From contig JAKPNN010000003.1 in assembly GCA_029548365.1 (NCBI GenBank), positions 1 to 64,000 on the forward strand: a stretch of 64,000 nucleotides of DNA. The letters are read 5' to 3'. How positions within the stretch are numbered: the first letter of the stretch is position 1; the number at the start of each line of letters is the position of its first letter. A program made the position numbers and the translations under genes. Below, piece after piece: positions 46,440 to 57,296 of the stretch. The notes under the pieces are model-generated. The model had not been told where the DNA came from. It did not search any database and worked only from the letters and a program-made list of their open reading frames with translations. This stretch comes from Chloroflexota bacterium (GTDB lineage: Bacteria; Chloroflexota; Anaerolineae; Anaerolineales; Anaerolineaceae).

Positions 46440-46453
46440 TATGATTTCCTGTA

Positions 46454-46498
46454 ATCGTTATCTGAAATCGATTTCTGAAATCGATTTCTGATAACGAT
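46454..46498. promoter_or_regulatory. 45-bp nested palindromic operator for the LacI regulator
   Basis: Two copies of GAAATCGATTTC (46464-46475 and 46477-46488) stand side by side, flanked by the inverted pair ATCGTTATC (46454-46462) and GATAACGAT (46490-46498). The whole is symmetrical except at three T positions. The central CG with A/T arms is typical of LacI-family operators. It begins 15 bp upstream of the regulator's start codon and its distal end overlaps the -10 box. Confidence 0.85.
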
Positions 46499-46525
46499 TT
46501 TACAAGATGTTTTTCTAATTGTCAA
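46497..46525 (-). promoter_or_regulatory. Sigma70 promoter of the LacI-led operon
   Basis: On the minus strand TTGACA (46525-46520) and TAAAAT (46502-46497) are separated by exactly 17 bp. The -10 box shares its last bases with the distal arm of the operator palindrome, so repressor binding would block RNA polymerase. Confidence 0.85.
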
Positions 46526-54528: not shown

Positions 54529-55503
54529 ATGCCATCCAAAACCCAGAACAAAAATGCAACAAAAATTTCAGCAGCGGTTGGTTTTATCATTTTAACAATT
54601 ACAGCGACCGTTCTGCTCGTCAATGCCGTTATTCAAAGTTTCTCCATACACCTGGCAGCGGGCATCGCTGTAATTCTTATTGCCATTGGCACATTTTTAA
54701 CGATTTTCACCGAAGGAAAAACGGTCTTCAAGGCTGAATTTGGATCAGTAGGTTTCTCAACAAAACTGTTTGAGTTTATCGCTGTTTTTGTTGGAAGCAT
54801 ATTAAGTTTCTACCTCAACAACAACCTTGGTTTAGGTTTGGTGGTCGGGTCTGCACTGGTCGGTCTACTGGCGGCGGCGGTTGCCCCCAAATACGCTGTA
54901 CCTGCTTATTGCGGTTCTTTCGCAGGCATGTCTTCAGCTGCTTTGTTTCCCGAATACCATGGAATCATTCTAGCCAGCGCCATTGCAGGCCTTATATTTG
55001 TTATCTGCCGGGATGTTTTCGGTGGGTTTGGTGGAAAATTAGGCGCGATGAGCTTTATAAGCGTAATCGCTGCCGGATTGCTGTTGAGCGGAACATTCGC
55101 TACTGCAGCAATTCCAAATTTAAACACCAGCCTTTGGATCCTTCTGACAGCATTAATCGCTGCACCCCTCACCTTCTACCTGAACACCGTTCTCGGCAAG
55201 GGCCCTGTTCTTGCCTCAACTGTAATCAGTTTACTGGCAGGGTTAACTTTGCCGGTGTTGGTTCCAGGAATTGGCGCCCAGCTCGGTGTTGTGGTCATTT
55301 GCTCCAGTTTTACTGGTATGTCAAATGAAAAGCGCAGCCCAAAGTTCTGGTATATGCTGCTTGCCGGGTTATTTACCGGGTTTCTGTTCATTCTCAGCAC
55401 GCCGCTCCTGGGCGGATGTGGTGGAAAGCTGGGCACAACGGCCTTTGTCTCCATTATGGCTGTCAACGGATTAACCAGCCTAGTTAACAAGATGCGCAAA
55501 TAA
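54529..55503 (+). CDS. Membrane protein with a two-fold internal repeat, unknown function
   Basis: A 324-residue polytopic membrane protein with roughly nine hydrophobic segments. It contains the same motif pair twice: CGSFAGMSS (128-136) with GGFGGKLG (165-172), and CSSFTGMSN (258-266) with GGCGGKLG (295-302). The spacing within each pair is 37 residues and between copies 130 residues. Glycine-rich motifs in such paired halves are typical of transport or channel proteins. I do not recognise the family. It stands alone, with an AGAAAGGA site upstream. Confidence 0.65.
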   Translation: MPSKTQNKNATKISAAVGFIILTITATVLLVNAVIQSFSIHLAAGIAVILIAIGTFLTIFTEGKTVFKAEFGSVGFSTKLFEFIAVFVGSILSFYLNNNLGLGLVVGSALVGLLAAAVAPKYAVPAYCGSFAGMSSAALFPEYHGIILASAIAGLIFVICRDVFGGFGGKLGAMSFISVIAAGLLLSGTFATAAIPNLNTSLWILLTALIAAPLTFYLNTVLGKGPVLASTVISLLAGLTLPVLVPGIGAQLGVVVICSSFTGMSNEKRSPKFWYMLLAGLFTGFLFILSTPLLGGCGGKLGTTAFVSIMAVNGLTSLVNKMRK

Positions 55504-55537
55504 ATCTTCTGTCGCGATATCCCCTCTCCCAACAGCC

Positions 55538-55562
55538 CCCTTCTCCCTTGCAGGGAGAAGGG
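55538..55562. repeat. GC-rich hairpin repeat at the left edge of the 112-bp array
   Basis: CCCTTCTCCC and GGGAGAAGGG form a 10-bp stem with a 5-nt loop. The following text, GGGGATGAGGGTCAGCATT (from about 55566), occurs again after the array near 56227-56246. The element therefore brackets the 112-bp repeats as a direct repeat. Confidence 0.8.
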
Positions 55563-55599
55563 TTGGGGATGAGGGTCAGCATTATTATTTCCGCATCCT

Positions 55600-56127
55600 A
55601 ACCAACCCGCGAACAAAGACCCCAGGGGTTTGTGTCGAATCTTCTCAACCCCGCAGTCAAACCCCGGAGGTCTGAAGAATAAAGTTTCATCAATATTTTG
55701 GTCATAACCCCAACCATCCCGCGAACAAAGACCCCCGGGGTTTGTGTCCAATCTTCTCAACCCCGCAATCAAACCCCGGAGGTCTGAAGAATAAAGCTTC
55801 ATCAATATTTTGGTCATAACCCCAACCAACCCGCGAACAAAGACCTCCGGGGTTTTTATCCAATCTTCTCAATCCCGCAATCAAATCTCTGAGGTCTGAA
55901 AAGAAAAAGCGATTCGCTCTTTTGAAATTAACCCCAACCATCCCGCGAACAAAGACCTCCGGGGTTTGTGTCCAATCTTCTCAACCTCGCAATCAAACCC
56001 CGGAGGTCTGAAGAATAAAGTTTCATCAATATTTTGGTCATAACCCCAACCAACTCGCATATTTAGACCCCCGGGGTTTGTGTCCAATTCTCTCAACCCC
56101 GCAATCAAAACCCCGGGGGTCTTAACA
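55600..56127. repeat. Array of 112-bp tandem repeats containing hairpins
   Basis: Five copies start at 55600, 55712, 55824, 55936 and 56048, so the period is exactly 112 bp; the last copy is cut short near 56127. Each contains the arms GACCTCCGGGGTTT and AAACCCCGGAGGTC separated by about 30 nt that read CAATCTTCTCAACCCCGC. Arms differ between copies in ways that often keep pairing (for example CCCCGGGG forms in the last copy). 112 is not a multiple of 3, so the array is not coding. Copy 3 is the most diverged. Confidence 0.93.
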
Positions 56128-56206
56128 GGCAACCTTAATTCCCGGTTTTCACTGTTAGCAGGCTCAAAGTTAAACTCTTCTCTCACGAGTCACACGGATG
56201 AGCCCT

Positions 56207-56260
56207 CCTCACCTAACAGCCCCGCTGGGGATGAGGGTCAGCATTATTCCTCCGCATCCC
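56207..56260. repeat. Right-hand bracketing repeat of the 112-bp array
   Basis: The segment repeats GGGGATGAGGGTCAGCATT and CCGCATCC as found at about 55566-55598. Its hairpin part is shortened to CAGCCCCGCTGGGG. It marks the right boundary of the array and was probably part of the same repeat family. Confidence 0.7.
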
Positions 56261-56312
56261 ATCAAAGAATCTTGAGAAACTGCTGGGCTTTCTCCTTTTC
56301 AGGTAAACAAGC

Positions 56313-56327: not shown

Positions 56328-57296
56328 ATGCGTGAAAAACCGCAGCAGTTGATCCTGCTGATCCTGTTACTCATCCTGGTGTTTTTTATTCAGCCCCAAC
56401 CGGTACACGCCCAGGCCGGTTCAGCCGCGGATTTGATCAATGCGGTTAACCAGTTGCGTCAGAGCCAGGGGTTGGCTCCCTATACAGTCGATAGCTACCT
56501 GATGGGTTTTGCTCAAAGTCACAGCGATTACATGGCTTCAATCGGGCAATGGACGCACACACGCGCGGATGGGACAACTTCTTTTGACTATGGGATCAAA
56601 GAAAACGTTGCCATGGGCAGCAATATGTCCATCCAGCATTGTGTTTACACCATCTGGTCCGATTGGGTTCATCTGCAGACAATGACAGGTTATGCCTCAG
56701 GCACGGTTGGCGCAGGGGTGTCCAGCGCAAACGGGGTTGTTTATTACACCCTCAACGTTTTGCCAAACGAAACCGTGGTCAGGCAGCCAACCACCGTCAG
56801 CAGTGAAAACCCCCCGGCACAGCCTGCAGATTCCAGTCCATCCAGCCTGCTGGTTTCAGCCTCGCAGGTGGACATCGCCACACCCAACCCGGACGGGAGT
56901 GTCATCCATACAGTTCGCTACGGGGAAACATTGTGGGCGATCTCCGAAGCCTATGGCATCCCGATCGATCAAATTTTAACCAACACCGGATTAAGCCAGG
57001 GAACCACCCAGGTCTTTGAAGGACAGGACCTGGTCATCATTCCCCCGGCAGACCCGACTGCCACACCGACGATCACCGCCACCCCCACCCCATCCACCCC
57101 AACCCCCACCCAGCCGCGACCCACCATGACCCCTTTTCCAACTCGCACCCCCCTGCCAACGCCCACGCCGACCACGCCCCCTTCTGCGCTGCACAGGGCT
57201 CTTAGCAACGGGAAGAACCTCGGCCTGGGGTTAATTCTGGCCAGTGGCTTAGGCATCATCGTCGTTGTATACCTGGGTTTCCTTAAAAAACGATAA
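56328..57296 (+). CDS. Secreted CAP-domain and LysM protein with C-terminal membrane anchor
   Basis: A 322-residue surface protein. A signal peptide (about residues 8-30, cleaved after VHAQA) precedes a CAP/SCP-like domain (about 35-150, with AQSHSDYMASIG, WTHTRADG and ENVAMG). A LysM domain (about 195-240, with YGETLWAISEAYGIPIDQIL) binds peptidoglycan or chitin-like glycans. A Thr/Pro-rich linker follows, and a C-terminal transmembrane helix with basic tail (RR/KKR) anchors it. It therefore probably sits on the membrane and reaches into the wall. The role is unknown. Confidence 0.88.
   Translation: MREKPQQLILLILLLILVFFIQPQPVHAQAGSAADLINAVNQLRQSQGLAPYTVDSYLMGFAQSHSDYMASIGQWTHTRADGTTSFDYGIKENVAMGSNMSIQHCVYTIWSDWVHLQTMTGYASGTVGAGVSSANGVVYYTLNVLPNETVVRQPTTVSSENPPAQPADSSPSSLLVSASQVDIATPNPDGSVIHTVRYGETLWAISEAYGIPIDQILTNTGLSQGTTQVFEGQDLVIIPPADPTATPTITATPTPSTPTPTQPRPTMTPFPTRTPLPTPTPTTPPSALHRALSNGKNLGLGLILASGLGIIVVVYLGFLKKR

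Follow-up and report, generated by a model that had tools for sequence, protein, structure and literature searches.

The array and its setting

The window, the whole stretch of 64,000 nucleotides that was analysed (G000:C19:1-64000), comes from an assembly of 1.65 Mb in 48 contigs at 70.7% completeness, which we infer to be a Brevefilum (Anaerolineaceae) MAG. It carries, between the genes for a predicted membrane protein and a CAP and LysM domain protein, a tandem array of hairpin units with a second repeat on either side:

54529 to 55503, + strand: upstream gene, 324-aa predicted membrane protein with no Pfam match (ORF and Pfam; gene pair kept in relatives)
55523 to 55599, + strand: second repeat, left copy, a CCCTTCTCCCT-TGC-AGGGAGAAGGG hairpin plus TTGGGGATGAGGGTCAGCATTATT (repeat search; genome copies at C1:49.8-50.5k)
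55600 to 56122, + strand: tandem array, 112-bp unit, 4.7 copies (TRF score 762)
55618 to 55672, + strand: hairpin 1, arms 14 nt, loop 27 (arm scan; RNA fold -23.4 kcal/mol, z -2.3)
55730 to 55784, + strand: hairpin 2 (arm scan; RNA fold z -4.0)
55842 to 55896, + strand: hairpin 3, decayed right arm AAATCTCTGAGGTC, spacer unlike that of the other copies (arm scan; RNA fold z -1.6)
55954 to 56008, + strand: hairpin 4, arms perfectly complementary (arm scan; RNA fold z -6.2)
56066 to 56121, + strand: hairpin 5, arms perfectly complementary (arm scan; RNA fold z -5.1)
56207 to 56266, + strand: second repeat, right partial copy (repeat search)
56328 to 57296, + strand: downstream gene, CAP + LysM domain protein (domain search; gene pair kept in relatives)

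The site is intergenic and follows the membrane-protein gene, as the preliminary description had it, the 324-aa protein ending at 55503 and the CAP/LysM protein starting at 56328. That description also gave the array an invariant period of 112 bp, and this holds: TRF on the window reports a period of 112 with 84% matches and 1% indels (score 762, 55600-56122), and the arm scan finds hairpin starts at exactly 112 spacing (55618, 55730, 55842, 55954 and 56066). The five near-identical copies begin at 55600, 55712, 55824, 55936 and 56048. Each contains a hairpin of 55-56 bp, AGACCCCCGGGGTTT-N27-AAACCCCGGGGGTCT, with arms of 14-15 nt close to GACCCCCGGGGTTT / AAACCCCGGGGGTC and a loop of 27-28 nt. 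RNA folding predicts the stem in all five hairpins (-15.8 to -31.1 kcal/mol, z -1.6 to -6.2), with uneven strength and an altered predicted fold in copy 3. A coding repeat is ruled out because the period is not divisible by 3, and an Rfam search of the window returned no family at gathering score. Elsewhere in the window, at 46443-46500, TRF reports a 13-bp palindrome, GATTTCTGAAATC, in 4.4 tandem copies.

The different repeat that had been noticed on both sides of the array is indeed there: its left and right copies share 23 identical nt (55564-55586 and 56226-56248) and a further 17 nt at 88% identity (at 55523 and 56207). The window array looks like a mosaic with remnants of a compound unit on both sides, because its last hairpin has the right flank, TTAACAGGC, of the subtype seen at another site in the same genome, C1:50k, where hairpin and second repeat alternate within one 148-bp compound unit. 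Beside that compound array lies a DUF559-like ORF (assigned by eye; L048:2368-2901), flanked 5' by the second repeat.

Nine syntenic relatives have a gap of 119-186 bp between the same two genes and no array, against ~820 bp in the host genome. Next to the CAP/LysM gene, on the right-hand side of the array, the host shares with the relatives a conserved promoter-like stretch, CTATAATAA. To judge from these sequences, the array was added to the gap, together with its bracket, as a derived, lineage-specific feature, because the gap is short in the relatives and the host keeps the CTATAATAA stretch and yet has ~820 bp. The gap in the relatives is too diverged for placing an exact empty site or junction.

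Copies in the host genome and across the genus

Blastn and pattern searches found the unit at eight further intergenic places in the ~70%-complete host genome, where large ORFs flank the sites and none runs across them. The copy numbers are lower bounds, and several contigs begin or end inside arrays:

C1:50k: array, 3 copies, period 148-149
C1:89k: array, 8 copies, period 112
C1:161k: array, 5 whole and more partial copies, period 113
C15:38k: array, 6 copies, period 70
C15:199k: array, ~13 copies, spacings ~79 and ~102
C15:113k, C11:68k and C48:11.7k: single copies

The arm-pair pattern gave 16-17 matches per strand in this genome and a reversed-pattern control gave 0. At C1:161k (L050:2300-2640), two array units are broken in the loop by unrelated sequence starting GCGCCGGTCTCCAGACCGA / GCCCACCCGTACC, apparently later insertions.

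The unit also occurs, as arrays or single copies, in five other Brevefilum species. The arms are perfect in G003, G004, G006 and G011, and G014 has a near-identical pair; exact-pattern searches found no arms in the other ten members of the genus. The named genomes with the extended arm are Anaerolineaceae MAGs, one of them Brevefilum sp. KA23. A strict pattern with a loop of at most 33 nt matched 0 of 399 other Chloroflexota drawn from the phylum, a result that bounds this form only, the known positive relatives being outside the draw. A first contig pattern with part of the interior fixed gave no matches. Elsewhere in the order, there are similar, non-identical short palindromes (AAACCTCGGAGGTCT) at few copies. 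In trees of the upstream gene and of ClpB, the arm-bearing species cluster (2 changes, against a mean of 4.3 in shuffles). They are no strict clade, since G002 breaks it and, for the ClpB tree, so does the placement of G003. A phage or plasmid origin was rejected: neither a pattern search of viral contigs nor blastn against phage and plasmid collections gave a match.

The preliminary description had suggested searching the genome and its relatives for the unit, and had held that a copy found only here, with no pairing conservation, would be consistent with simple slippage. The exact 112-bp period and the array-specific spacers do mean that local duplication happened. Because the unit recurs in other species and at many more loci, however, it is extremely improbable that local slippage of a one-off sequence, without further significance, is the whole explanation; slippage is retained as the mechanism of local amplification.

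Arms, loops and transcript 3' ends

It had been proposed that the two arms change in step, which suggested selection on pairing. This was not sustained. Over 41 genome copies, pairing stands at 93.0% against 92.8% when shuffled, 147 of 500 shuffles being as high, and the arm pairs with changes on both sides number one against 1.6 expected. Within the window, the arms match perfectly in copies 4 and 5 alone, and the sole informative arm pair is a C-A mismatch in copies 1 and 2. RNAalifold gives 5 pairs only and no compensatory change; on this and the shuffle control, covariation of the arms was rejected.

It is rather the sequence of the arms that is more conserved than the loop. The arms are less variable than the loops in all seven arrays compared, six from the host and one from G011 (0.048-0.139 against 0.119-0.269 differences per site, a contrast somewhat biased by locating the units through their arms), and in most of the seven they are also less variable than the spacers. 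If real, the constraint would act on sequence, with no compensatory change visible. The arms stay identical across loci and species, around interiors of 10 to ~70 nt across species. The interiors in the host are homologous between most arrays and with the array at G011:C67, and those at five G006 loci are unrelated, with no similarity clearly above shuffles. In the arrays read, loop and flank hold the same relative orientation, and an invertible element was rejected.

Each arm is almost palindromic (ACCCCCGGGGT) and varies less than the remainder of the unit, as sites for a DNA-binding protein might be, with the array serving as a binding or nucleoid-organising platform. We consider this very unlikely. 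The arms are inverted in every pair examined, which is needless for a palindromic site, their distance from each other varies from ~22 to 84 nt among loci with no common helical phase, and no candidate protein was found. The protein-binding array proposed earlier is thus not favoured in any form with a fixed geometry.

Another setting is the 3' side of clpB. In G002, G009, G010 and G012, the gene is followed by ordinary short terminator-like hairpins, mostly with T-runs and without arms. In G003 and G014, the arm hairpin lies 8-16 nt past the stop codon, and G006 and G011 have an array at that place. G004 has a separate terminator-like hairpin and then arms. The orthologue of this clpB was not found in the host assembly. 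Because arm hairpins and arrays occupy the place of the terminator-like hairpin, the comparison suggests that the hairpin can serve in place of a 3'-end structure. Inside the G011 array (C67) lies a gene for a PemK/MazF-like toxin (L090:1546-2153; PF02452, E 6e-14), preceded by a small ORF.

Taken further, the hairpins might be mainly mRNA 3'-end elements, either terminators or exonuclease barriers, and the arrays amplified forms of them. The exchange of terminator-like hairpins for arms after clpB speaks for this, as do the strong stems and the position of most host sites downstream of at least one gene. We nevertheless hold it to be fairly unlikely. In the clpB orientation no U-run follows the stem, the T-rich flank, TCTTTGTTTG, being on the other strand, and a gene points towards that flank at only about 4 of 9 host sites. 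One array is placed between the starts of two divergent genes, loops of up to ~70 nt are long for intrinsic terminators, and G004 keeps its separate terminator-like hairpin ahead of the arms. In the window, the + strand reads TGAAGA 3' of the stem and the T-rich flank belongs to the other strand, so that the upstream gene does not read through a stem into a U-run. Across the host genome, the orientation of arrays relative to neighbouring genes follows no consistent terminator rule. These placements make a secondary role at the 3' ends of transcripts plausible, and the array could possibly act as the transcription barrier that had been suggested.

Relation to REPINs and other repeat families

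For Pseudomonas fluorescens SBW25, the excerpted text of PMC3116915 describes REPIN clusters in tandem, flanking sequence included. Like the elements presented there, the Brevefilum repeat consists of two inverted short GC-rich, REP-like repeats that form a hairpin across a short spacer; it is dispersed over extragenic sites, and its ordered clusters are tandem, flanks included. It differs from the REPINs of that excerpt in having unrelated interiors in G006, no RAYT linkage, copies mostly in arrays and a copy number in the tens.

The lack of linkage was seen in several genomes. No arm within 3 mismatches occurs in the 2-3.4 kb around RAYT-type genes of G011, G003, G014 and others, and the repeats at the RAYT loci examined (L109-L111 and L113) are different palindromes, of GTAGGGTG type in most. 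At these four loci the RAYT-type Y1 transposase genes sit amid dense REP palindromes of that type, one locus having 17 copies at ~43-bp spacing. Matches to PF01797 run through most of the genus, with arms present or absent. The only Y1 match in the host is a divergent 234-aa protein with no HUH motif recognisable by eye, in an assembly that is ~71% complete; several relatives are incomplete as well, and a partner gene could be missing. Since the arms are not near RAYT genes, which have other, GTAG repeats, mobilisation by RAYT was rejected, and whatever moves the repeat has no visible tie to the genus's RAYT transposases.

The tags point the same way. Within 10 nt outside the arm, GTAG occurs at 0 of 97 perfect arms and CGTC/GACG at 4 of the 97; an A precedes at least 93. 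Tagged GTAG and CGTC REPs, as surveyed across phyla in the portion of PMC3733652 used here, resemble the Brevefilum arms in being palindromic, often in opposite orientation and mostly not between divergent genes. The Brevefilum arms, however, are without a GTAG tag or a consistent CGTC, and the GTAG REPs of the genus are another sequence, placed around RAYT genes. The repeat is therefore REPIN-like in architecture but falls outside the GTAG REP/RAYT family.

MITEs are likewise short and non-coding, with terminal inverted repeats at many sites. Unlike them, the Brevefilum repeat has in some genomes a loop that is not common to the loci. Neither an autonomous parent with these ends, which was looked for near the arm loci read, nor a target duplication was found; no duplication was obvious by eye at the G006 single copies, and in the relatives the window gap is too diverged to align an exact empty site. 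Integron attC sites are imperfect inverted repeats with conserved ends and a variable middle, in arrays, which is also true of the Brevefilum units. They were rejected because RYYYAAC/GTTRRRY core boxes were not seen at the ends, and there are no cassette genes between units.

Identical arm pairs around unrelated interiors, clear between the G006 loci and seen also beside clpB in different species, raise the thought that the system recognises and propagates nothing but the two 15-nt arms, the DNA between them being arbitrary and exchangeable. This would set the repeat apart from a MITE or a RAYT-driven REP, because neither would give identical arms around unrelated interiors. We think it quite unlikely.

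On balance, the array is probably a cluster produced by tandem amplification of a REPIN/BIME-like hairpin repeat that occurs in one Brevefilum subclade and close to it. Among the three proposals made earlier, a protein-binding array, a transcription barrier and a mobile non-autonomous element, the last fits best, since the unit belongs to a family repeated at many intergenic places and the relatives have a short gap without the array. Against the REPIN/BIME-like reading stand the lack of any transposition event seen directly and of a clean target-site duplication, the unrelated G006 interiors, which are unexpected from a simple copy-and-paste element, and arms without covariation. REPs, moreover, typically number hundreds per genome, and the arm matches here are tens per genome, in MAGs whose contigs often end in arrays.

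For such a repeat, one copy, or a small compound of hairpin and second repeat, would have settled in the gene gap. Unequal recombination or replication slippage, favoured by the hairpin, would then have multiplied it together with its flanks, so that every array acquired a spacer and period of its own and its copies were homogenised. The arms may have been preserved because something recognises their sequence or because the hairpin itself is used, for instance at the 3' ends of mRNAs; loop and spacer would have drifted meanwhile.

Literature searches gave no description of this Brevefilum hairpin-repeat family, and it is apparently new to the literature. It adds a family of hairpin repeats from a poorly studied phylum. 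Two palindromic systems coexist in the genus, one of GTAG REPs that surround RAYT genes and one of untagged arm pairs with no visible link to RAYT, and their coexistence opens a comparison of how REP-like repeats spread and persist without RAYT. The clpB locus, with canonical terminators in some relatives and arm hairpins in others, offers a natural experiment: it may show whether repeats of this kind take over the 3' ends of transcripts.
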